Assembly: GCF_029889905.1 (NCBI RefSeq)
Contig: NZ_JARANZ010000003.1
Coordinates: 248,001-312,000 of the forward strand
Source of the DNA: Chromohalobacter sp. 11-W
Lineage (GTDB): Bacteria > Pseudomonadota > Gammaproteobacteria > Pseudomonadales > Halomonadaceae
Reading direction: 5' to 3'
Length of the DNA: 64,000 nucleotides
Positions 13,423-36,405 of this stretch are shown piece after piece. Under the pieces are notes generated by a model. The model was not told where the DNA came from. It ran no database searches and was given only the letters and a program-made list of their open reading frames with translations. The stretch's first letter is position 1, and every line of letters starts with the position of its first letter. A program made the position numbers and the translations under genes.

Positions 13423-15314
13423 GCGTTGGCCGCCTGGACGTCCTGATCCTCGATCAGACGACGCTTCTTGAGATGCACCAGCAATAGCGACACGGCCGCC
13501 GGGGTAACGCCGGAGATACGTCCCGCCTGCGCCAGCGTCTCTGGCCGCGCGGCCTCGAGCTTCTGACGGATCTCATGGGACAGGCCGTCGATGCGTGCGT
13601 AGTCCAGATCCTCGGGCAGACGCAGTGTCTCATGGCGGCGCAGACGCTCGATCTCGTCTTGCTGACGCGCAATGTATCCCTGGTACTTGGCTTGGATCTG
13701 CACCTGATCGGCGACGCTGGGGTCGAGCTCAGGCGCCTCGTCATCGAGGTCGGCATGCGTCAGTTCGGGCCGCTTGAGTAGATCCGCAAGACGGTATTCG
13801 CGGGCCAAGGGCTTGTCGAGCTTGCTTGACAGGCGCTGGGCCAGCTCGCTCTGGGGTTGTACCCAGGTATCCCGCAAGCGTTCGGATTCGCGGGCGATGG
13901 CCTCGCGCTTGGTGGAAAAACGCTGCCAACGCTCGTCGTCGACGAGTCCCAGTTCCCGGCCGATCTCGGTGAGACGCAAGTCGGCGTTGTCCTCGCGTAG
14001 CAGCAAGCGATGCTCGGCCCGCGAAGTGAACATGCGGTACGGCTCCTGGGTGCCCATGGTGATCAGGTCATCGACCAGCACCCCGAGATAGGCCTCGTCG
14101 CGGCGCGGTGACCAGGCATCCTGTCCCAGGGCGCGACGAGCGGCGTTGAGTCCGGCCAGCAAGCCCTGGGCGGCAGCTTCCTCGTAGCCGGTGGTGCCGT
14201 TGATCTGACCGGCGAAGAACAGGTTGTGGATAAATTTGGTTTCCAGCGAGTGACGCAGATCGCGTGGATCGAAGAAATCATATTCGATGGCATAACCGGG
14301 ACGCGTGATGTGCGCGTTCTCGAAGCCTTTGATCGAACGTACCACCTGGAACTGCACGTCGAAGGGCAGCGATGTCGAAATCCCGTTGGGATAGAGCTCG
14401 TGGGTATCGAGGCCTTCGGGCTCGACGAAGATCTGGTGACTCGATTTGTCCGCGAAGCGGTTCACCTTGTCTTCAATGGACGGGCAGTAGCGCGGTCCGA
14501 CACCCCCGATGACGCCGGAATACATCGGCGAGCGATCGAGGTTGGCGTGAATGATCTCGTGGGTACGAGCGTTGGTATGCGCGATATGGCAGTTCATCTG
14601 GCGCGGATGCTGCTCCCGGTTGCCAAGATATGACATCACCGGAGTCGGCGTATCGCCGGGTTGGGTCTCGAGTACCGAGAAATCCACGCTTTTGGCGTCC
14701 AGACGAGGCGGAGTACCGGTCTTGAGCCGATCGACGTTGAACGGCAGGGCACGCAGGCGTTGCGCCAAGGCGTTGGAGGACGGATCCCCGGCACGCCCGC
14801 CGGAGTGATTGTCCAACCCGATGTGGATAACACCGCCGAGGAAGGTGCCGGTACATAGCACCACGCTTTCGCCATAGACCCGGATACCCGTCTGCGTAAC
14901 GACACCGCGCACCGTGTCGCCATCGACGATCAGGTCGTCGGCGGCCTGTTGGAAGAGCGTCAAATGCGACTGGTTTTCCAGTTGGCTGCGAATCGCGGCC
15001 TTGTAGCGGACGCGATCGGCTTGGGCCCGCGTGGCACGCACGGCGGGGCCCTTGCGGGCATTGAGTACACGGAACTGAATGCCGCCGAGATCGGTGGCAT
15101 GCGCCATGGCGCCGCCTAAGGCATCGATTTCCTTGACCAGATGACTCTTGCCGATCCCGCCGATGGCGGGATTGCAGGACATCTGGCCGAGCGTCTCGAT
15201 GTTATGCGTCAGCAGTAGCGTCTGACAGCCCATGCGGGCGGCAGCCAATGCGGCTTCGGTCCCCGCATGGCCCCCGCCGATGACGATGACATCAAAGCGG
15301 TCTGGGTAATCCAC
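13419..15314 (-). CDS. mnmG: tRNA uridine 5-carboxymethylaminomethyl modification enzyme
   Basis: FAD-dependent partner of MnmE that installs the cmnm5 group at U34 of several tRNAs. 631 residues from the chosen start (E. coli 629). The dinucleotide fold [14 protein letters not shown] lies at residues 8-21 and [11 protein letters not shown] near 152; the C-terminal helical domain binds MnmE and tRNA. I take the GTG at 15314 ([11 protein letters not shown]), preceded by GAGGTG; an ATG at 15362 would add 16 residues not found in the family. Its partner mnmE lies about 17 kb away rather than adjacent. Two exact DnaA boxes lie inside the gene. Confidence 0.96.
14225..14233 (-). promoter_or_regulatory. 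DnaA box inside mnmG
   Basis: Exact 9-mer TGTGGATAA, complement of the consensus TTATCCACA. It lies in the coding region of mnmG, so codon use alone may explain it, but it belongs to the set of exact boxes found only between 14.2 and 36.4 kb. Confidence 0.5.
14822..14830 (-). promoter_or_regulatory. DnaA box inside mnmG
   Basis: Second exact TGTGGATAA within mnmG, same orientation as the one at 14225. Confidence 0.5.
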
Positions 15315-15921
15315 GTTACACCTCGAATCGCAGCGTATGGCTGCGGTCGTGCATGTCGGCAAGTCTCATCGTCAGGCGATGAAGCTTGGCAAATAGCCGG
15401 ACAGTATAAACCCCTTGTGAGTAACCGTCAGGGTTTTCCACACATGGATTGCCAGTGGGTTGGCTCCTCATTGGGTCTCTTATTAATAACAATATAGAAT
15501 TTAAAAGAAGTTCTATTGTTGTTGTTATTACTGGTATCGGCAAAATCTGGGGATAAGTGGAAAAACTCGAGTGTTGATAGTTTTTTACGCTGTTCACTCT
15601 TGATCGGAAAAAGCGCCAACAGCCTGCGCGGGAGCGGGGGATGGCCTGTGGATGGAAGGGGGGCTTATCCACACGCCAGATCATGCACTACTTGTCCCCA
15701 GGCACATACCAGGGCTCCGCCCATAGTGGTCAACATTTGTCGGCGTTGCCTCTTAACCCCCGCATGACGGGGCTGGTAACGAAAATGAGCGGGTTGTGAC
15801 AGCAATGTTATGCACAGGCAAAAAATTGCCCTGTGAAGACGGAAATGAAGCGCGGCGACCCTTGAAAGGTCGCCGCGTGATCGTGAGGTGAGAGCGTTAC
15901 CTGATGTTTGAGAACAAAAAG
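15315..15921. other. AT-rich DnaA-box region, candidate origin or secondary origin near mnmG
   Basis: About 600 bases with no supportable gene. An AT-rich core (15478-15540) includes TATTAATAACAA and GTTGTTGTTATTA. Flanking it are an exact DnaA box TTATCCACA (15665-15673), a TTATGCACA box (15808-15816, fits TTATNCACA) and near matches TTTTCCACA (15434-15442) and TGTGGATGG (15648-15656). In E. coli oriC lies beside mnmG (gidA); in Pseudomonas it lies between rpmH and dnaA. The 12-mer TTGTTATTAATA recurs (opposite orientation) in the dnaA-upstream region at 36105. GATC sites are sparse. Origin function is inference. Confidence 0.55.
15851..15877 (-). terminator. Hairpin downstream of the amino-acid ABC operon
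   Basis: Perfect 10-bp stem CGCGGCGACC / GGTCGCCGCG with a seven-base loop, 45 bases after the stop of the ABC ATPase gene. The minus-strand sequence after it (CTTCATTTCC) is only modestly T-rich, so it is a probable but not textbook terminator. Confidence 0.6.
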
Positions 15922-16692
15922 CTAGTGCTTGAGAACGCGGGAGAGGAAAGCTTGGGTGCGTTCGTGTTGGGGATGATCGAAGACTTCTTGTGGTGTGCCT
16001 TCTTCGACGATGCGCCCGTCATGCACGAAGATGACGCGGTCGGCGACCTCGCGTGCAAAGCCCATCTCGTGGGTCACGATCATCATCGTCATGCCTTCGT
16101 TGGCCAGTTCACGCATGGCGTCGAGTACTTCGCCGATCATTTCCGGGTCGAGGGCCGAGGTGGGCTCGTCGAATAGCATCAGGCGCGGTTCCATGGCCAA
16201 TGCGCGTGCCAAGGCGACACGCTGCTGCTGGCCGCCGGAGAGCTGGCTAGGATACTTGTCGGCTTGATTGCTGATACCCACGCGTTCGAGCAGTCGATCG
16301 GCGATTTCCCGGGCCTTGGCGTTGTTGAGCCCGCGTACTTTCTCCGGCGCCAAGGTCACGTTGGCATGTACCGACAGGTGGGGAAACAGATTGAATTGCT
16401 GGAAGACCATGCCGACCTCGGTACGGATGGTTTGCAACGATTTCCCGCCCTTGCCGTGCGGTGTGAGCTCGTTGCCATCGACGATGATGCGTCCCGACTG
16501 GAACTCCTCGAGGCCATTGACGCAGCGAATGAGCGTCGATTTGCCAGAGCCGCTGGCACCGACGATGACGACCACCTCACCGGCGGCGATCTCGAGATCG
16601 ATATCCTGCATCACGTGCAGGCTGCCGAAGTACTTGTTGACCTTCTCCATCGTGACGATCGGAGCGGTGGAATCTTGCTGACTGTCATTCAT
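15922..16692 (-). CDS. Polar amino-acid ABC transporter, ATP-binding subunit (GlnQ-like)
   Basis: Energises uptake of an amino acid. 256 residues with all ABC motifs: Walker [10 protein letters not shown] near residue 45, Q-loop [12 protein letters not shown], signature [16 protein letters not shown] near 152, Walker [15 protein letters not shown] and switch His in VTHEMGFA. The sequence is of the HisP/GlnQ subfamily. It is the last gene of a three-gene operon (binding protein, permease, ATPase), 10 bases after the permease. Substrate is not determinable from sequence alone; glutamine, glutamate or a basic amino acid are options. Confidence 0.93.
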
Positions 16693-16702
16693 GATAGGCG
16701 CC

Positions 16703-17374
16703 TCATTGTCCGACCAGGCCCTTGCGCTCGAGCAGGCGCAAGGCGAAAGAGAGACTCAGGGTGATCGCCAGATAGAGCAAGGCGACCATCAAATAGACCT
16801 CGAGCGCGGTGAAGGTGGTCGCGATATAGACCTGGCCCTGACGCACCAGCTCGCCCACGCCGATGACCGAGAACAGCGAAGTGTCCTTGATGCTGACGAT
16901 GCCCTGGTTGCCGAGCGCCGGAATCATGCGGCGTAGCGCCTGGGGCCAGATGATGTAGCGGAAGGTATCGGTCCGCGACAGGCCTAGCGACAAGCCGGCT
17001 TCGCGCTGGCCCTTTTCGATGGATTGCACGCCGCCACGCACGATTTCCGAAATATAGGCCCCCGCGTTGAGGGCGATGGCGGCGATACCGGCGACGACGG
17101 CGTTGATCGGGCCGCCAATGAGCTGCGGCAAGCCATAGAAGATGAACAGCACCTGCACGAGCACCGGAGTGCCGCGGAAGATTTCGATGTAGACCGTAGC
17201 TGGCCAGCGTAGTAAGCGCAGCGGACTGATGCGTAGAAGGCCAAAGATGATACCGATCAGAAAGCCGATGGCGAGGCCGCCGAACGAGATCAGTAAGGTC
17301 CAGGGAATACCAGTGAGAAGATGCGGGAGGGAGGCGATGGCCGCCTGCCAGTCGAACTGGAAGTTGACGTCCAC
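16703..17374 (-). CDS. Polar amino-acid ABC transporter, permease subunit (GlnP-like)
   Basis: Inner-membrane channel subunit, 223 residues, five hydrophobic spans. The HisM/GlnP-family features are present: [20 protein letters not shown] near residues 75-94 and the EAA loop [20 protein letters not shown] near residues 125-144, which contacts the ATPase. Only one permease gene is present, so a homodimer is expected, as in GlnHPQ systems. It lies between the binding-protein gene and the ATPase gene. Confidence 0.93.
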
Positions 17375-17453
17375 GAAGGTGTCTCCAGGGTCGTGCCTCA
17401 GCGTACGTGCGCGCTGAGGCGACGACGCTTACGGTGGATGATGAGCCATGAAA

Positions 17454-17483
17454 AGGGGCCGGGTGAATGATCACCCGGCCCCT
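17454..17483 (-). terminator. Intra-operon hairpin after the binding-protein gene
   Basis: Perfect 13-bp inverted repeat (AGGGGCCGGGTGA / TCACCCGGCCCCT) with a four-base loop, followed on the minus strand by TTT. It sits between the solute-binding-protein and permease genes. Such hairpins commonly attenuate or stabilise the 5' part of ABC operons so that the binding protein is made in excess; this is inference from position. Confidence 0.7.
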
Positions 17484-17498
17484 AAAGGATCGTCGTAT

Positions 17499-18275
17499 TT
17501 ATTCGGCGTCAGGTGCCTTGCCGAACCACTTTTCGTAGATATCGTCGTAGGTGCCGTCTTCACGCATCTCGCTGAGCGCTTCGTTGGCGGGTTCTACCCA
17601 TTCGCTGCCCTTGGCGAAGGCGATGCCGTATTGCTGGCCTTCATACAGTGGCCCGACCACCTTGGCCTTGCCTTTGCCCTTGGTCTCGGCGAAGTAGCCG
17701 ACGTTGGGCGCATCGTAGAATACGGCGTCGACACTGCCGCCCATGAGGGCCATGTACATGTCGGAACTGCCGGGATACGGAGTGATTTCGGCGTCGTCAC
17801 CGAGCTCTTCCTGAAGGTAATCGTAACTCGTGGACCCGATCTTGGTGCCGATACGCATGCCTTCGAGGTCGTCGAGTTCCTCGACGTCGTCGTTGCTGCT
17901 GGGGACCAGGATGCGCAGACCGCTGTCGTAGTACGGATCGGAGAAATCGACGATCTCGCCGCGTTCGTCGGTAATGGTGATACCCGCGATGGCGATATCG
18001 ACGTTCCCGGTCTGCACGGCAGGGATGATGCCGTTGAAATCCATGGTGTTGAGATCGATATCGAAGCCGGCACGATCGGCGATGGTGTTGATGATGTCGA
18101 TGTCGAAACCGACCATTTCGCCGCTATCCTCGTCCATCATCTCGAAGGGCACGAAGCTGGGGTCGGTCGCCACGGCGAGCGTGGGCGTATCCTGAGCGAG
18201 GGCGGCACCGCTGGTACCGAGTGCCAGAGCCAGGGCGGAAAGACGTAGTGGCAGACATAGTGGCAAGTGTTTCAT
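17499..18275 (-). CDS. Polar amino-acid ABC transporter, periplasmic binding protein
   Basis: 258 residues with a signal peptide (residues 1-27, cleavage likely after ALA before QDTPTL). The SBP_bac_3 fold is clear: [20 protein letters not shown] near 41-60, then [21 protein letters not shown] near 99-119, which binds the alpha-carboxylate and amine of an amino acid. The mature protein is strongly acidic (many Asp/Glu runs), a pattern seen in exported proteins of halophiles. First gene of the operon; substrate not assigned. Confidence 0.94.
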
Positions 18276-18373
18276 AGCGTTCCCCGTTTGCTGTTGTTGA
18301 TGGGACCGACTCTACATTGACGAGTCCCGGTGGGGGCGTCAAGTGGAGAGAGAGGAACGCGAAAGGAGAGAAG

Positions 18374-18396
18374 GGGCATCCGCGTGGCGGACGCCC
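18374..18396 (-). terminator. Possible erpA terminator hairpin
   Basis: Inverted repeat GGGCATCCGC / GCGGACGCCC with one mismatch and a three-base loop, about 20 bases after the erpA stop. The following minus-strand sequence is CCTTCTCTCC, so the T-tract is weak. Confidence 0.45.
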
Positions 18397-18414
18397 GAGG
18401 CGCTGCATGACCGC

Positions 18415-18768
18415 TCAGACGGCGAACGAGGCACCGCAGCCGCAGGTAGATGTGGCATTGGGATTTTTGATGATGAAACGCGCCCCGGCGAGGCCTTCCT
18501 CGAAATCTACCGTGGAGCCGACCAGATATTGATACGAGAGCGCATCAATGATCATCGACGCGCCGCCATGTTCGATGACGGTGTCCTCATCGCCGACATT
18601 CTCGGCGAAATCGAAACCGTACTGGAAGCCCGAGCAGCCCCCACCGGTGACGTAGACACGCAGTTTGAGACCCGGCTTGCCCTCTTCCTCGACCAATACG
18701 CCCAGACGCTGGGCGGCGGCATCGGTCAAGTACATGGGCACCGGGACGAACGATTCAGCCCCGCTCAT
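18415..18768 (-). CDS. erpA: Iron-sulfur cluster insertion protein ErpA
   Basis: A-type carrier that delivers Fe-S clusters to apoproteins such as the isoprenoid enzymes IspG/IspH. 117 residues; the three cluster ligands are Cys45 ([12 protein letters not shown]), Cys109 and Cys111 (TCGCGASF). Length and the N-terminal [18 protein letters not shown] match ErpA rather than IscA. The chosen ATG has AAGGAGG directly upstream; an ATG at 18825 would add 19 residues not found in the family. Monocistronic by context, with a good promoter upstream. Confidence 0.95.
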
Positions 18769-18808
18769 GGGTGACCTCCTTAATCCATCGTGTGACTTAT
18801 GGCTTCCC

Positions 18809-18838
18809 ATTATCGTGAAAACCAAGCAAAACGGTCAA
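18809..18838 (-). promoter_or_regulatory. Sigma-70-like promoter of erpA
   Basis: On the minus strand TTGACC (18838-18833) and GATAAT (18814-18809) are separated by 18 bases. The implied transcript start lies about 35-40 bases before the erpA ATG. No IscR-type site was recognised. Confidence 0.6.
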
Positions 18839-18974
18839 CTTTGTATTGCGCTGGAGGCGCTGCCTACCGTCCTTCGCTAAGGTGTATGATAGAAAATACG
18901 CTATGTCAGTTTGCCATGGCGACGCCGGGGCGTGGCCATGCCGCGCGCCATGACCTCGGTGGAATTATCCGTTC

Positions 18975-20747
18975 ATGGGGAGATACGGTGTGCCTTTGCG
19001 TCGGTTTCGACCACCGCTCAAGCGGCCCAGTATGGAAGCTTTTCGTCGCCGCTTGGCAAGCGTCGATGCATTGCCACAGTTATGTGTGCTGGGGGTCCTT
19101 TCGGGGCTTCTGACCGGCGGTTTGATGGTCGTATTTCGCGGCGCACTGGAGTTTGGGGCGTTGGCCTTCATGCCGGATGGCGACCCCGAGGCTTTCGAGC
19201 GACTCGCAGTACCGCTTCGCGTGGTGTTGCCGTTGATCGCCGTGGCACTGATCGGCCTGTGGCTGTGGCGCATGCCGACGAGTGCCGGCAAGATCGGCAT
19301 CGGCCATGTCATCGAACGGTTGACTTATCATCAAGGCAAGATGCCGCTACGCAACTGGATCACCCAGTGGTGGGTAGGGCTCGTGGCCCTGCTGGGCGGC
19401 CTTTCCGCAGGGCGTGAGGGGCCCGCCATTCATCTGGGTGCGGCGGCGTCGAGCTGGATCGGGCAGACCATGCGGTTGCCCCACAACAGCCTGCGCGTAT
19501 TAGTCGGATGTGGCACCGCGGCGGGCATCGCCGCGTCGTTCAATACCCCGATTGCCGGCGTCATCTTCGCCATGGAAGTGGTGATGATGGAATACACCAT
19601 CACCGGTTTCATGCCGGTCATTCTGGCCTCGACTACCGGTGCCGTTGTCTCGCAGTTGGTCTACGGTTCCCAGCCCGCCTTCTCGGTGCCCAGCGTGCAA
19701 CTGGCCTCGTTGTTCGACCTGCCCTGGATCGTCGTGACAGCCTTGTTGATCGGCCTGGTGGCCGGCGGTTTCGTGCGCCTTGCCAGGCCCGCGGCGTGGA
19801 AGGCGCGCCTACCCATGTGGGGGCGATTCCTGGCGGTGGGCGTCGCGGTGGCGGCACTGGCTTGGTGGTACCCCCAGGTCCAGGGTATGGGTTACGACTC
19901 GCTTGAGCGCATGCTCGTCGGCCAGCCGGCGCTGGATGTGTTGATCGCCGTGGCGCTCGGTAAGCTGGTGCTGACGGCACTGGCCATCGCCTTCGGAGTT
20001 CCGGTGAGCATCATTGGGCCGATTCTGGTGGCGGGGGCGGCTCTGGGCACGTTGTGCGGGCTGTTGTGGGCCATGCTGATGCCAGAGTTGGCCTCGTCGC
20101 CGGCGGTGTTTTCGCTGCTGGGCATGGCCGCCATGATGGGGGCCGTCCTGCAGGCGCCCCTGGCGGCGTTGATGGCGCTTCTGGAGTTGACGCACAATTC
20201 GAGCATCCTGCTGCCGGGCATGCTGGCGGTGGTCATTGCGGTGCTGGTGGCGCGTCAGGGGTATCACTGCTCGGGTTTTTTCATTTCCACGCTCGATAGT
20301 CAGGGTCTGCATCCCTTGCAGCGCCCCTTGATGCAAGCCTTGTCACGGGTCGCGGTGCCCGCCGTCATGGAACGTAGCGTGGCGCGGGCACCGCGCGTGT
20401 TGTCGCGGGCCCAGGCTCAGGAACTGCTGGCCGGCAAACCTACTTGGCTGGTGGTCTCGCGCGAGGAGGATAAACCCCCGGTGGGGCTCAAGGCCGCCGG
20501 GCTGGCGCGGCTCATGCTCGACGAAAAATGGCAGGACGAACCCCGCTTCGACCTGCTGGAAATCCCCGGTCAGCGTGTCGATCTGGCGCCCATTTCCTTG
20601 CAGGCGACGCTCTCGGAGGCCTTCGAGCAACTCAACAAGTATGGCGTCGATGCGCTCTACGTCGAACACACTACGGCGCCGCTGATCCGCAAGATTTCGG
20701 GTATCATCACCCGCGACGCCATCGAGAACTACTACCGTAACAAATGA
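18975..20747 (+). CDS. ClC-family chloride channel/antiporter with C-terminal CBS-like region
   Basis: 590 residues, about ten to twelve membrane segments in residues 35-440, then a cytosolic tail resembling a CBS pair (ending ISGIITRDAIENYY). The gating-glutamate motif GREGP is intact near residue 151. The segment NTPIAGVIFAMEVVMMEY aligns with E. coli ClC residues around 192-208; the internal proton-transfer Glu203 position appears to be Val, as in ClC channels. The selectivity segment reads SIIGP near residue 344 in place of the usual GxFxP. An ATG at 19032 (MEAFRRR) is an alternative start. Chloride or another anion is the likely substrate. Confidence 0.9.
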   Translation: MGRYGVPLRRFRPPLKRPSMEAFRRRLASVDALPQLCVLGVLSGLLTGGLMVVFRGALEFGALAFMPDGDPEAFERLAVPLRVVLPLIAVALIGLWLWRMPTSAGKIGIGHVIERLTYHQGKMPLRNWITQWWVGLVALLGGLSAGREGPAIHLGAAASSWIGQTMRLPHNSLRVLVGCGTAAGIAASFNTPIAGVIFAMEVVMMEYTITGFMPVILASTTGAVVSQLVYGSQPAFSVPSVQLASLFDLPWIVVTALLIGLVAGGFVRLARPAAWKARLPMWGRFLAVGVAVAALAWWYPQVQGMGYDSLERMLVGQPALDVLIAVALGKLVLTALAIAFGVPVSIIGPILVAGAALGTLCGLLWAMLMPELASSPAVFSLLGMAAMMGAVLQAPLAALMALLELTHNSSILLPGMLAVVIAVLVARQGYHCSGFFISTLDSQGLHPLQRPLMQALSRVAVPAVMERSVARAPRVLSRAQAQELLAGKPTWLVVSREEDKPPVGLKAAGLARLMLDEKWQDEPRFDLLEIPGQRVDLAPISLQATLSEAFEQLNKYGVDALYVEHTTAPLIRKISGIITRDAIENYYRNK

Positions 20748-20808
20748 TCCCGGTACTGCTCCGAGGCATTTTTCAGCAAGAACGTAGGACTAGCATTAAG
20801 GAATCGCC

Positions 20809-21240
20809 ATGTATCATTGGATCTTATCGCTGCATCTGGTTGCCGTCATGACCTGGTTCGCGGCGCTTTTCTTCCTCCCTCGATTGTTCGTCTATCATGC
20901 TCAGGCGCGCGATCATGGCGATGAACAGGCGATGGGCTACTTTCAGCTCATGGAAAGGCGTCTCTACAAGGGCATCATGCTGCCGGCGATGATCGCGGTG
21001 ATCGTTTTTGGGGGGCTGCTGATCTATCTGGTGCCGAGCGTCATGAGTAATGGCTCGTTTCATGTCAAGCTGCTGCTGGTCGCGTTTTTGATCGGCTACC
21101 ATCATGTGTGCCTGGCCTACCTCAAGCAGTTCGCGGCGCAGCGTTGCCAAAAGAGTTTGAAATTCCTGCGTATTTTCAATGGCATTCCCATCCTGCTGCT
21201 GTTTGCCATCATTCTACTCGTCGTCTTCCAGCCGTTTTGA
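20809..21240 (+). CDS. hemJ: Protoporphyrinogen oxidase HemJ
   Basis: Membrane enzyme that oxidises protoporphyrinogen IX to protoporphyrin IX, the penultimate step of heme synthesis. 143 residues, four membrane spans. The family signature is visible: HLVAVMTWFAALFFLPRLFVYH (His9 and His30), then MERRLYKGIMLPAM and KLLLVAFLIGYHH. It is one of the hemG/hemY-independent oxidases. Its TGA overlaps the thiD ATG by one base; hemL follows about 1.6 kb downstream and hemW 6.4 kb downstream. Confidence 0.9.
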   Translation: MYHWILSLHLVAVMTWFAALFFLPRLFVYHAQARDHGDEQAMGYFQLMERRLYKGIMLPAMIAVIVFGGLLIYLVPSVMSNGSFHVKLLLVAFLIGYHHVCLAYLKQFAAQRCQKSLKFLRIFNGIPILLLFAIILLVVFQPF

Positions 21241-22064: not shown

Positions 22065-22717
22065 CGGCGGATTGGACGCGAGGCATTTACGCCATTACCG
22101 ATGCGACGCTGTTGCCGGATGATGAGCGTCTGTTCGCGGCGTGCGAGCGTGCTTTGAGCGCGCCCCCGGCGCTTCTGCAGTACCGTGACAAGTCGGCGGA
22201 TGCCGACAAACGCTGGCGTCAGGCTGCGACCTTGGCGGGGTATTGCCACGATGCCGGGGTTCCGCTGATCGTCAATGACGATATCGCCCTGGCGGTGCGA
22301 CTGGGCGCGCGTTTCGGTACCACTATCGGGGTGCATCTGGGGCAGCAGGATGGCGCGTTGGATGCCGCACGCGAGGCGCTGGGACACACGGCGATCATCG
22401 GCGCGACCTGCCATGCGCGCTTGGATCTGGCCGAGCGCGCGGCGGCCGAAGGCGCCAGTTATCTGGCTTTCGGGCGTTTCTTCGCCTCGCGCACCAAGCC
22501 CGAGGCGCCACCGGCGCCCTTGACGCTGCTCGGCGACGCAGCGCGTTTCGGCCTGCCGCGTGTGGCGATCGGCGGGCTCGACGTCCACACTATGCGTCTA
22601 GCCCGGGAGGCCGGCGCGGAGTTGCTGGCCACGGTGCATGCGGTCTTCGGCGCCGACGACCCCTCCATCGCCATCAAGGGACTGCAGGCGAGTCTCGGCG
22701 ATGCGGCGCGCCACTGA
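22061..22717 (+). CDS. thiE: Thiamine-phosphate synthase
   Basis: Joins HMP-PP and thiazole phosphate to thiamine monophosphate. 218 residues with the TIM-barrel motifs [10 protein letters not shown] (diphosphate/Mg binding) near 41-50, [11 protein letters not shown] near 90-100, [15 protein letters not shown] near 117-131 and the phosphate-binding GGLDVHTM near 175-182. ATG 22061 overlaps the thiD stop by four bases. No THI-box riboswitch was recognised upstream of hemJ. Confidence 0.95.
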
Positions 22718-22718
22718 A

Positions 22719-22772: not shown

Positions 22773-22821
22773 CTTTCTTTTAGCGACACGTTCTTTTAGC
22801 CACACACAGCCAGAGGAAGTC

Positions 22822-24111: not shown

Positions 24112-24119
24112 TATAGCGG

Positions 24120-25880: not shown

Positions 25881-25896
25881 GTGGGTCGTGCAGGCA

Positions 25897-28781: not shown

Positions 28782-28849
28782 CAAACGTTTCGATAGCAGG
28801 AACGCTAGAACGTTTTACGAAACGCATTACAGCTAAGGAGAAAGGACGC

Positions 28850-29530
28850 ATGCAACGCTCGATATGGATGGCGATTCCGCTGGCTCTGGCGATTGGTGTC
28901 ACGGGTTGTGCAAGCAACGATGCGCAAACCGGCGGCCAACAGAGCGACCACGGCAAGACATTCGGTGGTGCGGGCATCGGTGCCGCGGTGGGCGCAATTG
29001 CCGGCGCGCTGACCGGGGACGGCAGCAGCAGCACCCGTGACCGTGCGTTGATCGGGGCGACTGCCGGGGCAGCCATCGGTGGCGGTGTGGGTGCCTACAT
29101 GGATGCTCAAGAAGAAAAGCTGCGCCAGGATCTCGACGGGACCGGTATCGGGGTCGATCGTCAGGGCGACAACATCGTCCTCAACATGCCTAGCAGCGTG
29201 ACCTTCGCGGTCGACTCCAGTGAGCTGCGGACGCCCGCTCGGCAGGCACTCAACGATGCCACCGCCGTCATGCGCGAGTATCCCAAGACACGGATCAACG
29301 TGGCAGGCTACACCGACAGCACCGGTAGCGCCGACTACAACCAGCGCCTGTCGGAGCGTCGCGCGCAGTCCGTGGCCGATTATCTCGGTCAGGGAGGCAT
29401 CGCCGGCAATCGTATCGCCACGGTCGGCTACGGCGAAAGCCAACCCGTCGCCAGCAATGATACTGAAAGCGGCCGTGCCCAGAACCGGCGTGTCGAAATC
29501 ACGCTGACGCCTGTCACTCAGCAGAGCTAA
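28850..29530 (+). CDS. OmpA-family outer-membrane lipoprotein (YiaD-like)
   Basis: 226 residues. Signal peptide ends at the lipobox GVTGC, so Cys20 is lipidated. Residues about 42-90 hold a glycine-zipper region (GGAGIGAAVGAIAG and GATAGAAIGGGVGAY). The C-terminal OmpA domain has the peptidoglycan-binding motif YTDSTGSADYNQRLSERRA near 165-183. This matches YiaD-type envelope anchors. RBS AAGGAGAAAG precedes ATG 28850. An in-frame start at 28778 would precede the signal peptide and is rejected. Confidence 0.9.
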   Translation: MQRSIWMAIPLALAIGVTGCASNDAQTGGQQSDHGKTFGGAGIGAAVGAIAGALTGDGSSSTRDRALIGATAGAAIGGGVGAYMDAQEEKLRQDLDGTGIGVDRQGDNIVLNMPSSVTFAVDSSELRTPARQALNDATAVMREYPKTRINVAGYTDSTGSADYNQRLSERRAQSVADYLGQGGIAGNRIATVGYGESQPVASNDTESGRAQNRRVEITLTPVTQQS

Positions 29531-29546
29531 GCGACCACGGCAGCGT

Positions 29547-29572
29547 GCCAGGCCGGTTCACACCGGCCTGGC
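29547..29572 (+). terminator. Hairpin after the OmpA-like lipoprotein gene
   Basis: Perfect 11-bp inverted repeat GCCAGGCCGGT / ACCGGCCTGGC with a four-base loop, 16 bases after the stop. No T-run follows, so termination is less certain than hairpin formation. Confidence 0.55.
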
Positions 29573-29638
29573 CTGCCAGGTTCATCAGCGCCCCTGACGT
29601 GGGCTCCCTTCGCGCTTCACGTCGTTTCGGAAACTTTC

Positions 29639-30484
29639 ATGCTCGCCTATCAGCACGCCTACCACGCCGGCAATTTCGCCGACGTTCACAAACATCTCGC
29701 CATGTTCGCCGTTCTGCGCCATCTATTACGTAAACCTTCTCCTGTTACGTATGTGGATACGCATGCCGGACGCGGGCTGTATCCCCTTGATGCCGAGGAA
29801 ACGCAGCGCCTCAAGGAGTATCGCCACGGCGTGGCGAGTCTCTGGGCGGCGCGCGAGCGCCTTGCCGACGACGCATTTCTGGGTCCATGGTGCGAGCAAC
29901 TTGGTGCGGTACAGGCGTCGCCTCGGCTCAGCCACTATCCGGGCTCGCCCTGGTGGTTGTCTCAGGCATGTCGGGTGCAGGATCGCCTCGACCTGTACGA
30001 GCTTCACCCGGGCGAGTCGAACCATCTCGAAACCCAAGCGTGGCCTGACCAGGCGCGACGTTTCCACGCGGATGGGCTGGCTGGCCTGCGTGCCTCTTTG
30101 CCGCCGGCGACGCCCCGCCTTTGTGTGCTCATCGATCCCAGTTACGAACTCAAGCAGGAATATGTCGACGTCGCGACGACGTTGCAGGCCGTGTCCGCCA
30201 AGGTGCGTCACGCCATCGTCTTGATCTGGTATCCGTTATTGCCCAGCGGGCGTCATCACGACCTGCTCGATGCCGTCCGGCATAGCGGAGTGCGCAAGGT
30301 CTGGCGCAGCGAGCTGCTTCTGCATCCGCCCGGCGATGCCACGCATGGCATGTACGGTAGCGGCATGCTGATCTTCAATCCGCCCTGGGGGGTGGATACG
30401 CAGCTCGATGACAGCCTGGCGCGCGTCGTACGCTGTCTGGGGGACGAAGCCACGCATGCGTCGCAGTGGTGGGTCGAGGAGTAG
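29639..30484 (+). CDS. rlmJ: 23S rRNA (adenine2030-N6)-methyltransferase
   Basis: 281 residues, family length. The N-terminus MLAYQHAYHAGNFADVHKH is the RlmJ signature, followed by SAM-binding YVDTHAGRGLY near 38-48. The catalytic tetrapeptide at about 166-169 is DPSY (DPPY in E. coli). Methylates A2030 of 23S rRNA. Convergent with the Lrp-family gene. Confidence 0.93.
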   Translation: MLAYQHAYHAGNFADVHKHLAMFAVLRHLLRKPSPVTYVDTHAGRGLYPLDAEETQRLKEYRHGVASLWAARERLADDAFLGPWCEQLGAVQASPRLSHYPGSPWWLSQACRVQDRLDLYELHPGESNHLETQAWPDQARRFHADGLAGLRASLPPATPRLCVLIDPSYELKQEYVDVATTLQAVSAKVRHAIVLIWYPLLPSGRHHDLLDAVRHSGVRKVWRSELLLHPPGDATHGMYGSGMLIFNPPWGVDTQLDDSLARVVRCLGDEATHASQWWVEE

Positions 30485-30522
30485 GCGTGGCTAGGCAAGG
30501 CAAGTTCTGTGGAAATGGCTGG

Positions 30523-30975
30523 CTAAATCACTTCCTGCGAGACTTTAACCCGATCCAATACAACGATGGTTCTGAACCATTTGACGTTGGGGTTGTTGTG
30601 AAACAGCGCGTCGCAGAGTTCTTGAAACCGACTCATGCTGGGCACTAGCAGTATCAGCATGAAATCCGCTTCACCGGTCACGTAGTAACACTGCTGAATC
30701 TCAGGTCCGGAAAAATGGGTCTTGAGCTGCGCCAGATCAGCGGCGTGGGTCTTATCCGCCTGTACCTCCACCAGCAGAGTAATCACCTGACCCAGGCGGT
30801 CTGGATCGAGCACGGCAACGTTTGCCTGTATAAAACCGCCGTTCTTGAGCTTCTGTATGCGCCGCTGAATGGAAGCCGTCGACAGGTGGACCATTTCGGC
30901 CAGCTCGCGAAGCGGCGTCTGGCAATCTTTCTGCAAAAGTTCAAGCAGGGTGTAGTCAAAGTTATCCAGCGTCAT
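30523..30975 (-). CDS. Lrp/AsnC-family transcriptional regulator
   Basis: 150 residues: an N-terminal helix-turn-helix (TPLRELAEMVHLSTASIQRR near 20-39) and a C-terminal RAM ligand domain (AADLAQLKTHF then YYVTGEADFMLILLV). Divergent from the RarD-like transporter gene, so it may control it (inference). GC content here is visibly lower than in neighbours, suggesting transfer. The start at 30975 gives the family length; an upstream ATG at 31116 would overlap the divergent gene. Confidence 0.9.
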   Translation of the reverse strand: MTLDNFDYTLLELLQKDCQTPLRELAEMVHLSTASIQRRIQKLKNGGFIQANVAVLDPDRLGQVITLLVEVQADKTHAADLAQLKTHFSGPEIQQCYYVTGEADFMLILLVPSMSRFQELCDALFHNNPNVKWFRTIVVLDRVKVSQEVI

Positions 30976-31081
30976 CAGGATATTCAGGTGAGAAAATTTA
31001 TCGCTGACGGTAGGTAATACAAGCGCCTTTATCAAGGGTGCTGCAATAAAATAGCGCTGAATTCCCGACCGGAAGCAGCTT
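30976..31081. promoter_or_regulatory. Divergent promoter region lrp-like / rarD-like
   Basis: 106 non-coding bases between the divergent Lrp-family and transporter genes, moderately AT-rich. A plausible control region for both; no operator palindrome was recognised. Confidence 0.5.
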
Positions 31082-32002
31082 ATGCGCACGGACTCCACTA
31101 CAATCGCTGGCGTCACGCTGAACGTGATTGCCTCGGCCCTGTTTGCTTTACTGTTTGCCTATACCGCTCTGCTGCCGGCCATGGAGGGCGGCGAGATCTA
31201 CGGCTGGCGGATTCTGCTGACCTTTCCCTGCCTGAGCCTGTTTATTCTGTGGCGGGGCTATGGGGCGCAAATAACCACTCTTGGCCGGCGCCTGATAGCA
31301 GAGCGCTACTTCTGGGCCACCCGGCTGGCGTCAGCGTTCCTGCTGGGCGCTCAGCTCTGGCTATTCATGTGGGCGCCGGGCAATGGCCATGGCCTTGCGG
31401 TGTCGCTGGGCTACTTCATGATGCCGATCATCATGGTGGTTATCGGGCGCATCGCGTTCGGCGACCGCCTGACAGGCTTTCAGAAAGTTGCCTGCCTGCT
31501 GGCGGTGGCGGGCATTGTCAATCAGTTGGCCATATCGCAAACGCTGGCATGGCCAACCCTGGCGGTATGCGTAGGCTATCCGGCCTATTTTTGGCTGCGG
31601 CGTAAAACCGATACCAACCACATCGGCGGGCTATGGCTGGATATGCTACTGAGCCTGCCGGCATGCCTTTGGTTTATTCTTGCTGGCGGCCATATGACAG
31701 AAGCGATCAATATCGAGGCTATCGGGCTGGTGACGGGGCTTGGACTGCTCAGCGCGCTCGCTTTAGGGTTTCAGGCGCTCTCCGCCCCGCTGCTCAATCT
31801 GAGCCTGTTCGGCCTGCTGGTTTACGTTGAACCCGTGCTGCTACTGGGTGTTTCGCTGCTTTTGGGCGAGGTCATTGATCCCCGCGAATGGCCGACCTAT
31901 ATCGCGATCTGGCTGGCGGTAGTGGTGCTCATGGTGGAAGGCGCTTGGGGCTTGCACAACCGCCGCTACGCGCCTGAAAAGACTGCCCCCGTGGCGGAAT
32001 GA
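31082..32002 (+). CDS. EamA/RarD-like drug/metabolite transporter
   Basis: 306 residues with about ten membrane spans in two EamA repeats. The C-terminal block PLLNLSLFGLLVYVEPVLLL resembles RarD, a family whose substrates are unknown (E. coli RarD was named for chloramphenicol sensitivity). Divergent from an Lrp-family gene, an arrangement often seen for amino-acid or metabolite exporters (inference). Codon use and GC content differ from flanking genes. Convergent with mnmE, 20 bases apart. Confidence 0.82.
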   Translation: MRTDSTTIAGVTLNVIASALFALLFAYTALLPAMEGGEIYGWRILLTFPCLSLFILWRGYGAQITTLGRRLIAERYFWATRLASAFLLGAQLWLFMWAPGNGHGLAVSLGYFMMPIIMVVIGRIAFGDRLTGFQKVACLLAVAGIVNQLAISQTLAWPTLAVCVGYPAYFWLRRKTDTNHIGGLWLDMLLSLPACLWFILAGGHMTEAINIEAIGLVTGLGLLSALALGFQALSAPLLNLSLFGLLVYVEPVLLLGVSLLLGEVIDPREWPTYIAIWLAVVVLMVEGAWGLHNRRYAPEKTAPVAE

Positions 32003-32022: not shown

Positions 32023-33399
32023 TTACTTGCCGATGCAGAAGCTGCCGAAGATTTCACCGAGTAGGTCGTCGGCGGTGAATTCGCCGGTGATTTCGGCGAG
32101 CGCGTGTTGCGCTTCACGGAGGTCCTCGGCGAGCAGTTCACCGGCCCCGTGCCCCTGTAGCTGGGCGATGCCGTTGTCGAGGGCCTGACCGGCGCGGTCG
32201 AGGGCGTCGAGGTGGCGCCGGCGCGCCGAGAAACGTCCTTCGGTGGTGGCATCGAAGCCCATCACCGTCTTGAGATGATCCTTCAGGTTATCCACACCCT
32301 CTCCAGTGATGGCGGACATGCGCACCAATGGTGGGGTTGTGGATAAATCACTCACGGCATTCTCGCCGCTTTCGTCGATCTTGTTACGCACCAGCGTCAG
32401 GCGCTCGGGATGGGGGAGGCGTGCGACGAATTCCGGCCAGAGTTGCATGGGGTCGGTCTGGGTCGTGGTCGCTGCATCGACCAATAGCAGCACGCGGTCG
32501 GCCTTCTCGATTTCTTCCCAAGCGCGGGCAACCCCGATTTTCTCGATGGCATCCGGCGTGTCGCGTAACCCGGCGGTGTCGATGACGTGCAGTGGCATGC
32601 CATCCAGATGAATGTATTCGCGCAATACGTCACGGGTGGTGCCTTCGATGTCGGTGACGATGGCGCTGTCGCGTTCGGTCAGTGCGTTGAGCAGGCTCGA
32701 CTTGCCGGCATTGGGGCGTCCGGCGATGACCACGTTCATGCCTTCGCGCATCAATGCCCCTTGCCCGGCGGCGGCACGTACCTCGCCGAGCATGGTGTGC
32801 ACGTCGTTAAGCATCGCCGCTACCTTGCCGTCGGCGAGGAAGTCGATCTCCTCCTCGGGAAAGTCGATGGCGGCTTCGACGAACATGCGTAACTCGATCA
32901 GCTTGTCGACGAGCGCTGCGACGCGCGTCGAGAATTCGCCCTGCAGCGAGCGCAGGGCGTTTTCGGCGGCGGCGCGGGAGCTGGCATCGATCAGATCGGC
33001 GATGGCCTCGGCCTGGGCCAGGTCGAGCTTGTCGTTGAGGAAGGCGCGTTCGGAAAACTCGCCAGGGCGCGCCAGGCGGGCGCCCAGCGTGACACAGCGT
33101 TCGAGGAGCAGGTCCATGATCACCGGCCCGCCATGCCCTTGCAGTTCAAGAACATCCTCACCGGTAAAGGAGTGGGGGCCGGGGAAGAAAATTGCGATGC
33201 CTTCGTCGATGACACCGTCGTCGGCGTTGCGAAATGGGCCGTACTGCGCGTGACGCGGCGCTGGGCAATGGCCGAGGAAACCCTCGGCCAGCGTGCGACT
33301 GGCGGGACCCGAGATGCGCACGATGCCGACCCCGCCACGTCCGGGGGGCGTGGCGATGGCGGCGATGGTGTCTTGGCGATAGAGCGGCGTAGCGGTCAT
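32023..33399 (-). CDS. mnmE: tRNA modification GTPase MnmE
   Basis: GTPase partner of MnmG for cmnm5U34 synthesis. 458 residues: N-terminal tetrahydrofolate-binding domain with [12 protein letters not shown] near 20-31, G domain with Walker [10 protein letters not shown] near 227-235, switch [16 protein letters not shown] and NKID, and the C-terminal catalytic tail CIGK. In Pseudomonas it is followed by mnmG; here 16.7 kb of other genes intervene. Two exact DnaA boxes in inverted orientation lie inside the gene. Confidence 0.97.
32288..32346. promoter_or_regulatory. Inverted pair of DnaA boxes inside mnmE
   Basis: Exact TTATCCACA at 32288-32296 and exact TGTGGATAA at 32338-32346, facing each other with 41 bases between. 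Both lie in the coding region. Confidence 0.5.
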
Positions 33400-33450
33400 G
33401 TTGATCTCCGACTCGTTGCCGGTATTGTCCCGGTGGTAGGCCCAAAACGC

Positions 33451-33476
33451 CAGACCCCCGCCGAGGCGGGGGTCTG
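33451..33476 (-). terminator. Terminator between yidC and mnmE
   Basis: Perfect 11-bp stem CAGACCCCCGC / GCGGGGGTCTG with a four-base loop, 25 bases after the yidC stop; on the minus strand it is followed by GCGTTTT. It may reduce read-through into mnmE. Confidence 0.7.
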
Positions 33477-33501
33477 ATCGGATGGTAAACGGAAAGGGCC
33501 G

Positions 33502-35199
33502 TCAGCTCTTGGCTTTACTGGCTTTTCCCGTTTCGCCGTCACTTTCGATCTTGCGCGTGATGATCCACTGCTGAAGGATCGAAATGACGTTGTTGCAGAT
33601 CCAGTAGATCACCAGGCCGGCCGGGAACCACAGGAAGAAGAACGTGAAGACCACAGGCAGCATCTTCATGATCTTGGCCTGCATGGGATCCGGCGGTGTC
33701 GGATTCAGCAACTGCTGAACGAACATCGAGGCGCCCATGATGATCGGCAGGATGAAGTAGGGATCCTGGGCCGAAAGGTCATTTATCCACAGCATGAAGG
33801 GCGCATGACGCAGTTCCACGGATTCCAGCAACATCCAGTACAAGGCGATGAAGACCGGCATCTGCACGACGATGGGCAGGCAGCCCCCCAGAGGATTGAT
33901 CTTCTCCTTCTGGTAGAACTTCATCATCTCCTGCGACATCTTCTGCCGGTCGTCGCCGTACTGTTCCTTGATGCGCTTCATCTCCGGGCCCATCTTGCGC
34001 ATCTTCGCCATCGACTTGTAGGCCTTGGCGGAGAGCGGGAAGAGCACGATCTTCACGACGACCGTAAGCAGCACGATCGACCAGCCCCAGTTACCGATCA
34101 GGCCATGAATCTTCGCCAGCAGCCAGAACAGCGGATTGGCGATGAACCATAACCACCCGAAGTCGACGGTCAACTCCAGGTGAGGCGCGATGGCTTCCAG
34201 GCGGTCCTGAATCTTGGGCCCCATGTAGAGCGTCGCGGCCAGAGTGGTTTCGCCGCCGGGCTGGACCTGCTTGGAGGGACCGGCAAACGCGGCGACGTTG
34301 CGATCACGGGAATCGATATTGGCGTAATAAAGATTCTCTTGGCTCTGTACCGGGACCCACGCCGAGGTGAAGTAGTGCTGGATCATGGCGACCCAGCCGC
34401 CCTCGGAGTTGACATTCTTGAAGTTGCCTTCACGAATGTCATCGAAGTCGATCTTCTCGTAGTTGCTTTCTTGCGTGGAGAAGGTCGCGCCGAGGAACGA
34501 CTTCATGCTCATAGGGCCGCCGCCCTGGCTGGGATCGGCGCTATTGTCGCGAGCAAGCTGGCCGACGAAACGCGCGGAGATAGGCGTTTCGCTCTGGTTA
34601 TCGAGTCGGTACTCGACATTGACGGCGTAACTGTCGCGATCGAAGGTATAACGCTTGATGATGTCCACGCCATTGACCTCGGCCGTGAGGTCGACGCTTA
34701 GGCTGTCTTGATCGTCGCCAAGCGAATATTGCATTTGCTCGGAAGAGAAATCGATGCGCCCATCATGGCCCTCCAATTGCAGCCCCGACTTGGCAACGTA
34801 GCTGCGCACGTTGTTGTCGCTGAGGAGAACGAAGGGTTGCTCGCTATTCAAGGACTCATGGTGCTTGGGTAGCGCGGCATAGACGACATCGCCGCCACGA
34901 GGATCGATGCGAATATCCAGCGTGTCGGTGCGTACCTCGATCAAGCCGTCCGCGTCGGTTTGCCCGTCCGCGCCAGGCATGTCGGCGGCCTCTTGCGATG
35001 AGGCACCGTTACCGCTGCTGTTGGACGTGGGAACCGAAAGGCTGTCGCTGTCGGCGTTACTATCGGACGTATCCTGGGTAACGCTTTCAGGTGCGCGTTG
35101 TTCGACGCTGTTTTGCCCATAATCCGCGTTCCACTGAATGACCAGTAGATAGGCGAGTACCGCGAGCGGGATGACGAGTAGGAGTCGTTTTACGTCCAT
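33502..35199 (-). CDS. yidC: Membrane protein insertase YidC
   Basis: 565 residues. An N-terminal span (about 5-22) is followed by a Ser/Asp-rich linker and the large periplasmic beta-sandwich (about 60-330), then the conserved Oxa1 core from IVLLTVVVKIVLFPLSAKAY (about 370-390) with its positively charged groove residue Arg/Lys, and LNPTPPDPMQAKIMKMLPVV near 482-501. It inserts and folds inner-membrane proteins with or without Sec. The linker is strongly acidic, as expected for a halophile periplasm. An exact DnaA box lies at 33783-33791. Confidence 0.97.
   Translation of the reverse strand: MDVKRLLLVIPLAVLAYLLVIQWNADYGQNSVEQRAPESVTQDTSDSNADSDSLSVPTSNSSGNGASSQEAADMPGADGQTDADGLIEVRTDTLDIRIDPRGGDVVYAALPKHHESLNSEQPFVLLSDNNVRSYVAKSGLQLEGHDGRIDFSSEQMQYSLGDDQDSLSVDLTAEVNGVDIIKRYTFDRDSYAVNVEYRLDNQSETPISARFVGQLARDNSADPSQGGGPMSMKSFLGATFSTQESNYEKIDFDDIREGNFKNVNSEGGWVAMIQHYFTSAWVPVQSQENLYYANIDSRDRNVAAFAGPSKQVQPGGETTLAATLYMGPKIQDRLEAIAPHLELTVDFGWLWFIANPLFWLLAKIHGLIGNWGWSIVLLTVVVKIVLFPLSAKAYKSMAKMRKMGPEMKRIKEQYGDDRQKMSQEMMKFYQKEKINPLGGCLPIVVQMPVFIALYWMLLESVELRHAPFMLWINDLSAQDPYFILPIIMGASMFVQQLLNPTPPDPMQAKIMKMLPVVFTFFFLWFPAGLVIYWICNNVISILQQWIITRKIESDGETGKASKAKS
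33783..33791 (+). promoter_or_regulatory. DnaA box inside yidC
   Basis: Exact TTATCCACA within the yidC coding region, about 2.2-2.6 kb from the boxes upstream of dnaA. Confidence 0.5.
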
Positions 35200-35282
35200 A
35201 AGGATTCTGCCCGGTGATACATTCTGACGTCACGTCCCGACCGGCACTGCGGCCACGGTGGAACGTGGCGGAGAAATGCCGA
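35200..35282 (-). other. rnpA-yidC spacer without yidD
   Basis: 83 bases. In most gammaproteobacteria the small gene yidD occupies this position, overlapping or abutting rnpA. I translated the minus strand here and found no YidD-like frame. Confidence 0.7.
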
Positions 35283-35669
35283 TCAAGGGGATGGCGTGGA
35301 CGAGACCGACTGCTTGCGTACGTCTTTTTCCAGGCGTCGCCACATGCCGTGCAATTGGCGATGCAAGGTATCGTTATCCAGCTCATGAGCCCCACGCCGA
35401 GCGAGAACGATGATATCTACGGCGGGGAGACGATGCTGCTGGAGACGAAAAGATTCACGGACGAGGCGTTTCAGACGGTTACGGTCGACAGCACGACGTA
35501 CGTTCTTCTTGCTAAATACGAGCCCCACTCGCGGTTCACCGAGAGCATTGGGACGCGCAAGCATCAAAAGGCCCTTGCCGTGCACCTTGAAGGACGCGTG
35601 AGCGAAGACGTGCTGATAGTCCCCGGCGGTTAGCAGTCGCCGCCGCCGGGGAAAGCCCTGATCGGACAT
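35283..35669 (-). CDS. rnpA: Ribonuclease P protein component
   Basis: Protein subunit of RNase P, which matures the 5' ends of tRNAs. 128 residues; the RNR signature is NVRRAVDRNRLKRLVRESFR near residues 56-75, and the N-terminal aromatic/basic cleft region FPRRRRLLTAGDYQHVF is typical. A longer in-frame start at 35960 would overlap rpmH and is rejected. Eleven bases separate it from rpmH. Confidence 0.96.
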   Translation of the reverse strand: MSDQGFPRRRRLLTAGDYQHVFAHASFKVHGKGLLMLARPNALGEPRVGLVFSKKNVRRAVDRNRLKRLVRESFRLQQHRLPAVDIIVLARRGAHELDNDTLHRQLHGMWRRLEKDVRKQSVSSTPSP

Positions 35670-35680
35670 TCGTTGTCCAG

Positions 35681-35815
35681 TCAGGCGCTCAGACGCTTGC
35701 GACCTTTGGCACGACGACGCGCCAGCACCTGGCGGCCGTTCTGGGTGGCCATGCGAGCACGGAAGCCGTGCACGCGCTTGCGCTTTAGGACGCTCGGTTG
35801 AAAAGTGCGCTTCAT
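35681..35815 (-). CDS. rpmH: 50S ribosomal protein L34
   Basis: Very basic 44-residue ribosomal protein, full family length: [20 protein letters not shown], then [20 protein letters not shown] and RLSA. ATG at 35815, stop at 35681. First gene of the rpmH-rnpA-yidC group, reading away from dnaA across the conventional oriC position. Confidence 0.98.
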
Positions 35816-36405
35816 AGCTGCGAATTCTCACGTGGTTGTTTGGAAACGATTTGAAACTGAAGAGCCCGGTACGTTTGCACCAGGCGGTATTCGGCTCAAG
35901 ACCGGCAATTCTAGTGAATCCCTGGGGCAGGTGCAATTTTTCCGGCGCTTTTATCCACACCTGTTTTGTTACGGCGGCGGGGGCTCGGCATGTGCCGAGG
36001 CGGTCGGCCCGAGCGGATGCTTGTTTGTTCGCTCGTCGCTTGTCGGCCTGCTCTTGGGCGAAACGATCAAGCTATTATCATTATTGAAGTTGTACTAACT
36101 GATGTTGTTATTAATAGTGGGGATATTATTTGTGGATAACCATATTTTTACCTTTATTAACAATGATGTGAGATGTTCTTGGATCTGTGAGGAAAAGGCG
36201 GGGAAGCGGTGGGTAAGCTGTCGGTAGCATTGTGGGTAAGTGGCGATTTCTACACACCCTACGACATCTCCACGTGTCACGGACACGTTGTGCGCTGAGT
36301 TATGGGGTGGGTTTTCCACAGGAAAAGAGACTCGGCATCCATGTGGATAACCCGGGCGTCGAACGATACAATAGCCGGCCATTCATCAACGCTAGGTGAG
36401 GTCGT
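35816..36405. other. Conventional oriC position between rpmH and dnaA
   Basis: About 590 bases without a gene. AT-rich segments at 36070-36175 (including TTGTTATTAATA at 36105-36116 and TTTATTAACAA near 36153). Exact DnaA boxes: TTATCCACA 35951-35959, TGTGGATAA 36131-36139 and 36342-36350. Near matches: TTTTCCACA 36312-36320 and TGTGGGTAA 36231-36239. In Pseudomonas and many gammaproteobacteria oriC lies exactly here. It also carries the rpmH and dnaA promoters. Origin function is inferred from synteny and boxes. Confidence 0.8.

Follow-up and report, generated by a model that had tools for sequence, protein, structure and literature searches.

The stretch of Chromohalobacter sp. 11-W DNA analysed here, hereafter the window, covers 64 kb of contig NZ_JARANZ010000003.1 and carries dnaA of this member of the Halomonadaceae together with a marked cluster of DnaA boxes. 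From left to right, parB-parA-rsmG-mnmG (minus strand) is followed by an intergenic region rich in AT and by a block of genes concerned with transport, haem, thiamine and other functions; then come mnmE-yidC-rnpA-rpmH (minus strand), another AT-rich intergenic stretch and dnaA-dnaN-recF-gyrB. The mnmG gene (gidA; 13419-15362, minus strand; NCBIfam TIGR00136) adjoins the first, oriC-like intergenic region, and the closest named mnmG sequences, those of Halomonas, Billgrantia and Salinicola, are 79-82% identical to it. The block at 15922-32002, which separates the two modules described below, includes among its annotated genes amino-acid ABC transporter parts, clc, a hemJ-like gene, thiD, thiE, a hemL-like gene, rdgB, hemW-like and ompA-like genes, rlmJ and others. 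To its right, mnmE-yidC-rnpA-rpmH (minus strand; rpmH called from sequence and position only) and dnaA (plus strand) span 32023-37893.

A pattern scan of the 64 kb recovered the 11 exact TTATCCACA boxes and the single TTATGCACA at 15808 that the original prediction had listed, each at its listed position, and found no further TTATNCACA anywhere in the window, that is, none outside 14225-36350. The claim that all exact boxes lie in this one segment is therefore correct for the window and incorrect for the genome (3.66 Mb, 38 contigs), where 11 of the 31 exact boxes fall in the segment; a reversed control pattern had 12 matches. Compared with the rest of the genome, the 22.1-kb segment has 11 boxes against 0.12 expected, a 90-fold enrichment (P ~2e-18, or ~3e-16 after correction for 165 windows, with the rate taken from the 20 boxes elsewhere). 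This excess, together with the reversed control, rules out chance or base composition as the source of the cluster. Two more exact boxes were found left of the window, at distances of 5.6 kb (C23:242425) and 8.0 kb (C23:239967), and the relaxed pattern TTWTNCACA added sites at 15434 and 36312, both TTTTCCACA and each within one of the two intergenic clusters, and at 52476.

For comparison, 71 genomes of the family were located and 43 of them used (42 relatives and the genome itself, representing 20 genera); those left unused include genomes with the genes on separate contigs or with a locus crossing a contig end. As these genomes are related, the box excesses among them overstate the number of independent events. 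Exact boxes were mapped in five relatives, and there the stretch between mnmG (or its start) and dnaA was enriched 27- to 111-fold: it holds 6 of 23 genomic exact boxes in G013 (60-fold), 8 of 22 in G023 (111-fold), 7 of 21 in G049 (100-fold), 5 of 27 in G057, whose segment ends at its contig end (27-fold), and 7 of 58 in G022 (41-fold, with 57 of the 58 listed). The over-representation of boxes near the origin that is looked for in a titration region was thus observed in the genome itself and in five relatives. Most boxes of the window also recur at matching places in related genomes, the exceptions being those at 14822 and 33783.

The intergenic region upstream of mnmG contains four boxes with at most one mismatch, at 15434, 15548, 15665 and 15808; three or more beside replication-linked genes are taken to mark an oriC. 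The box at 15548-15556, TTATCCCCA, has one mismatch to the consensus and is followed leftward by an 11-nt spacer and 9 DnaA-trios, forming a module at 15507-15556 (minus strand) with the composition of a BUS, the unwinding module made of a DnaA box and DnaA-trios (here a box, a spacer of at most 16 nt and at least three trios). On its mnmG side, the plus-strand box at 15434-15442 is TTTTCCACA in 19 of 20 aligned genomes and TTTTGCACA in the remaining one. The exact box at 15665-15673 (plus strand) is box-like in 19 of the 20 aligned rows, with an exact box in the interval in 7/43 genomes, and the interval matching the TTATGCACA box at 15808-15816 (plus strand) has an exact TTATCCACA in 15/43 genomes of 10 genera. 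Judged by its sequence, the mnmG module is the well-known oriC of Gammaproteobacteria, because the mnmG loci of Vibrio, Photobacterium and Aeromonas also pass the spacer-11 score defined below.

The second AT-rich region, between rpmH and dnaA, likewise adjoins replication-linked genes and has four boxes with no more than one mismatch, at 35951, 36131, 36312 and 36342. Here an exact TTATCCACA at 36131-36139 is followed leftward by an 11-nt spacer and 7 DnaA-trios (module at 36095-36139, minus strand), again with the composition of a BUS. The window therefore has two modules of the same design (box, 11-nt spacer, trios) in the same orientation, 20 kb apart. The plus-strand box at 35951-35959 was found at a matching distance from dnaA in 8/43 genomes of 3 genera; that at 36312-36320 (plus strand, TTTTCCACA) comes from the relaxed scan; and the minus-strand box at 36342-36350, ~65 bp before the dnaA start, is present in all 43 genomes and 20 genera and likely serves dnaA autoregulation.

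To compare modules between genomes, a trio was defined as a triplet with a central A, and the score as the number of fitting triplets out of 8 at spacer 11, with at least 6/8 counted as a pass. By this score, 30/43 genomes pass at mnmG and 16/43 at dnaA, compared with 2/534 other boxes, and 10/43 do so at mnmG and dnaA alike, among them all five genomes fetched from the window's genus. When the box was picked by match alone (at most 2 mismatches), the mean score was 6.28/8 at mnmG (43 genomes) versus 3.34 in local shuffles, and 5.29/8 at dnaA (34 genomes) versus 3.04, and none of 500 local shuffles reached the observed means. Three trios alone are a weak criterion, being present at 16% of other boxes. 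At dnaA, spacer 11 with 7-10 trios was found in genera g1, g2, g8, g11 and g19. Among named Halomonadaceae mnmG loci, 5/8 pass the looser score (at least 6/8). The idea that the spacer-11 module is specific to the family failed at mnmG, since 18 of 39 named loci outside the family with a box pass the same score, including Vibrio, Photobacterium and Aeromonas (33 of the 72 have no box). At dnaA, the score is reached by only 1 of the 28 outside loci in which dnaA is within reach (6 of them lack a box), so that the dnaA-side module of this design is mainly a Halomonadaceae feature in this sample.

Between and beside these modules, several boxes are embedded in genes, as the original prediction had pointed out for mnmG, mnmE and yidC. 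Both mnmE boxes and one of the two mnmG boxes turned out to be conserved, while the second mnmG box and the one in yidC look lineage-specific. The minus-strand box at 14225-14233 in mnmG, at codons 377-380 (F-I-H-N), is present in 23/43 genomes and 12/20 genera; in the 39 genomes with a readable mnmG, the amino acids permit it in 26, and 20 of these have it, versus 1.87 expected from codon usage. In mnmE, the plus-strand box at 32288-32296 (codons 368-371, G-V-D-N; 28/43 genomes, 14 genera) occurs in 28 of 28 eligible genomes versus 1.93 expected, and the minus-strand box at 32338-32346 (codons 352-354, L-S-T, leucine TTA; 22/43 genomes, 12 genera) in 22 of 29 versus 0.04 expected, the TTA being kept within a loop whose neighbouring residues vary freely. 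These two boxes converge, 50 bp apart, and the pair is found at 50 bp in 19/43 genomes. Codon identity among genera places mnmE 352, mnmE 368 and mnmG 377 in the top 2% of their genes over all genomes, and in the main-group genomes alone mnmE 368 ranks at 0.007 (33 genomes) and mnmG 377 at 0.031 (30 genomes). By contrast with these sites, codon conservation was not raised at the minus-strand box at 14822-14830 in mnmG (codons 178-181; 6/43 genomes, 2 genera; rank 0.30; 6 found versus 1.22 expected), and the plus-strand box at 33783-33791 in yidC (codon 470; 3/43 genomes, 2 genera) has a codon rank of 0.43, with 3 found versus 0.35 expected; both are possibly chance occurrences.

A synonymous shuffle, from which 4/43 mnmG and 3/33 thiD sequences were dropped as too short a reading and which had 17 usable hemW sequences, found 57 boxes versus 2.2 expected in mnmE, 34 versus 4.1 in mnmG and 12 versus 0.5 in thiD, as compared with 5 versus 2.6 in dnaA, 3 versus 1.3 in hemL, 3 versus 0.28 in yidC, 1 versus 0.35 in clc and 1 versus 0.06 in rsmG. 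The thiD box, present in 14/33 genomes (for example G029, G038 and G049), is absent from the window's own thiD. Upstream of hemL, a distal box at 22719-22727 (18 of the 33 genomes with hemL in the segment) and a proximal one 45 bp from it at 22764-22772 (22/33), both on the plus strand, form a pair at 45-46 bp spacing in 17/33 genomes of 8 genera. When the exact converging pair was searched for across the order, 23/293 genomes matched; of the 12 family genomes covered, 5 had it within mnmE-like sequence, while the sequences in the other 18 differ from the mnmE-like ones; and no exact box was found in mnmE among 34 named outside loci with mnmE read, some of them partially.

Elsewhere in the genome, an exact converging pair of DnaA boxes lies at a contig end (C4:170-216), beside genes that by eye resemble pssA and ilvC. 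Upstream of an MnmC-like gene (C36:33407-33455, or L258:1362-1410) lies a TTATGCACA-like box followed by 5 bp, TGTGGATAA and then CTGTTAA. This element was found in 12/25 loci (11 genera), the loci having been chosen for box-like sequence there, and it may represent a DARS- or datA-like element.

The distance between mnmG and dnaA varies widely across the family: it is 4.5-4.9 kb in the five genomes of g2, 9.5-11.5 kb in the four of g4, 13.4 kb in g22 and, in the remaining 33 of the fetched set, 17-39 kb. Among the genomes located but left unused, the layout is wider still in G037 (~103 kb) and G024 (~173 kb), and mnmG has the other orientation in G018. Outside the family, dnaA lies 4.1-9.1 kb from mnmG in 28 of the 72 named loci. 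Since only 4.5-13 kb separate mnmG from dnaA in the outlying genera, inserted genes seem to have stretched the region, and none of the block genes (15922-32002) was detected in the mnmG-mnmE interval of the segments fetched from g2, g4 and g22. In an MnmG tree with a midpoint root, built without four named rows and the four genomes with dropped mnmG, the stretched genomes form one group (99/94), separate from g2, g4 and g22. Insertion of a gene block between mnmG and mnmE in an ancestor of the stretched group would be the parsimonious account, an order of events that we infer from this midpoint-rooted tree.

To evaluate which side is in use, the cumulative skew was followed, and the genes between mnmG and dnaA were scored after separating leading and lagging genes; the raw GC skew at third codon positions of mnmG, mnmE and yidC was set aside, as it mixes gene strand with replication. 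In the genome itself, the cumulative skew changes 2.2 kb to the left of the mnmG start, and the same was observed ~2 kb to the left in G013, while the skew minimum lies 6 kb to the left of the mnmG start in G061. It lies near dnaA in G022 (0.9 kb to the left) and G004 (2 kb to the left), and 1.2 kb to the right of mnmG in G026, where the two sites are only 4.5 kb apart. The log-likelihood ratio controlled for gene strand favours the mnmG side in the genome itself (+8.1), G013 (+8.2) and G061 (+5.0); for G022 it points to the dnaA side instead (-14.1). The skew switch of the genome itself is thus found at the mnmG side and not at the dnaA side, whereas in G022 it is at the dnaA side. Bidirectional replication of this chromosome most likely starts at the mnmG module, and different members of the Halomonadaceae appear to use different sides.

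Two perfect parS sites, recognised by what we take to be the consensus, lie at 39567 and 43650 of the window, right of dnaA and 24-28 kb from the mnmG-side origin, whereas parAB sits left of that origin, on the opposite side; G013 has five parS sites in the matching region. Farther right, a 6S RNA (ssrS) was identified at 62667-62849 (Rfam RF00013, 103.7 bits).

Taken together, we lean towards reading the segment as the chromosomal origin region of the Halomonadaceae, stretched by gene insertion and equipped with two modules, the mnmG side of which would be active, and with outlying boxes that would be kept by selection. The original prediction of an extended DnaA landscape or a split origin fits the two modules 20 kb apart, the conserved boxes between them and the compact arrangement in outlying genera. 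Its rejection of one compact oriC has to be given up, as 15.43-15.82 kb is marked as such an oriC by its position among the genes, its cluster of boxes, its AT-rich module of trios and the switch in skew. The boxes, the modules, the conservation and the skew are read from the sequence; DnaA binding, origin activity and titration we infer from established DnaA biology, as follows. DnaA would bind the perfect boxes and would initiate bidirectional replication at the mnmG module, while the dnaA-side module would be a reserve, former or newly gained origin accompanied by dnaA promoter boxes. The mnmG 377 box, the hemL pair and the mnmE pair would be kept by selection on DNA, and the outlying boxes would hold DnaA near the origin, probably by titration, their doubling soon after firing lowering free DnaA. 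The hemL boxes may in addition regulate hemL, and the dnaA-proximal boxes would autoregulate dnaA. Titration by the outlying boxes is a plausible proposal.

Several observations weigh against this reading. The skew is undecided in G004 (+1.8) and G026 (0.0), and in G022 it points to the dnaA side although the mnmG module there is intact (8/8) and the dnaA module weaker (5/8), so that module quality would be no predictor of the origin used. Within the window's genus, 4/5 genomes have the imperfect box TTATCCCCA at mnmG, and strict trio runs reach only 3-4 in the eight named Halomonadaceae mnmG loci. The dnaA-side module may be neither ancestral nor functional, because few family genomes and outside loci pass there. 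The codon-identity rank of mnmE 352 is only 0.124 in the 33 main-group genomes alone. Finally, a box in a putative DUF72 gene ~21 kb left of mnmG is kept even in genomes that have this gene at a great distance from the origin. This box (L006:14425, that is C23:242425; L-W-I, codon ATA) is present in 24 of the 28 genomes having the gene (31 searched), with 25 boxes found versus 3.67 expected by shuffling. G010 and G022 have it too, although in them ~97 and ~213 kb separate the gene from mnmG. Conservation therefore need not mean origin function.

A simpler account, which we consider rather unlikely, would be one compact mnmG-side oriC plus an autoregulated dnaA promoter, with the dnaA trio run a relic or a promoter-only feature and the other boxes serving local regulation of hemL and the mnmE operon, without joint titration. 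The universal -65 box of dnaA, the low pass rates of the dnaA-side module within and outside the family and the position of the hemL pair directly upstream of its gene agree with it. It is harder to reconcile with the mnmE boxes and mnmG 377, which are conserved though deep in coding sequence and away from promoters, and with the spacer of 11 and the 7-10 trios kept at dnaA in the five genera named above. Still more ambitious than the preferred stretched-origin reading, and in our view unlikely, would be two working DnaA-dependent origins on one Halomonadaceae chromosome, mostly 17-39 kb apart in the fetched genomes and linked by conserved sites partly inside protein genes, with the active side switched between dnaA and mnmG within the family.

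It is very improbable that the boxes inside genes arose as by-products of protein-motif conservation and codon usage. The MnmE G-V-D-N and MnmG F-I-H-N motifs are partly protein-conserved, and mnmG 178 and yidC 470 come close to the by-product expectation, so that protein-coding constraint was not rejected for these two. The codon-usage tests rejected it for mnmE 352, mnmE 368 and mnmG 377, where the 22, 28 and 20 boxes far exceed expectation, and for thiD (gene-wide only), and the mnmE L-S-T site sits in a variable loop. Slightly less improbable, the pairs at mnmE and hemL might be embedded datA- or DARS-like elements that would alter the nucleotide state of DnaA; their fixed spacings, 50 bp and 45-46 bp, speak for this possibility.

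Much of the stretched-origin reading has precedent, and what is already known comprises the mnmG-side origin, BUS modules, bipartite origins, putative or real double origins and origin-proximal box enrichment. With the gammaproteobacterial oriC at gidA/mnmG (Vibrio, Photobacterium, Aeromonas, enterobacteria), the window shares position and orientation upstream of mnmG, the box cluster and the AT-rich stretch, and the trios at the Vibrio, Photobacterium and Aeromonas mnmG loci are in the same phase as those of the mnmG module; it differs by its second module and by dnaA lying 20 kb away. The strict trio run also differs, with spacer 11 in the window and spacer 14 with only 3 trios at those Vibrio, Photobacterium, Erwinia and Aeromonas loci for which that box was selected. 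The BUS (PMC8287927) shares the box, short spacer and at least three central-A trios, of which the window has two sets in one origin region. The bipartite origins of B. subtilis and H. pylori (PMC4285127) span up to ~2 kb with one unwinding region; two box clusters near dnaA are shared, but those of the window are 20 kb and many genes apart, and trio modules occur at both sites rather than an unwinding element in one subregion only. Two putative origins on one chromosome are described for P. aeruginosa (Yee and Smith 1990, Jiang 2006, cited in PMC4403523 and PMC3642087), as are two functional origins in a single-chromosome V. cholerae strain (cited in PMC10225481); these resemble the window in having more than one origin or candidate per gammaproteobacterial chromosome. 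The nearest precedents for the outlying boxes are E. coli and Salmonella, where Olivi et al. argued for titration from origin-proximal box enrichment (PMC12371093), and B. subtilis, where removal of six DnaA-box clusters led to early initiation (PMC5295017). In these systems, as here, boxes lie near the origin or affect initiation via DnaA binding; the region in the window differs in being enriched tens-fold within 13-35 kb and in having single boxes at homologous in-gene positions across genera.

In the open-licence literature searched, we came across no origin region whose two trio modules lie at such a distance from each other, no stretching of an origin within a family and no codon-level DnaA boxes in mnmE or mnmG. 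How an origin comes to lie away from dnaA without losing control is, to our knowledge, an unanswered question. The relatives provide a series from compact through intermediate to stretched arrangements, with both modules readable in some, and this series bears on that question. The codon-level DnaA boxes in mnmE and mnmG would further offer a natural and easily mutated test of titration beyond E. coli and B. subtilis.

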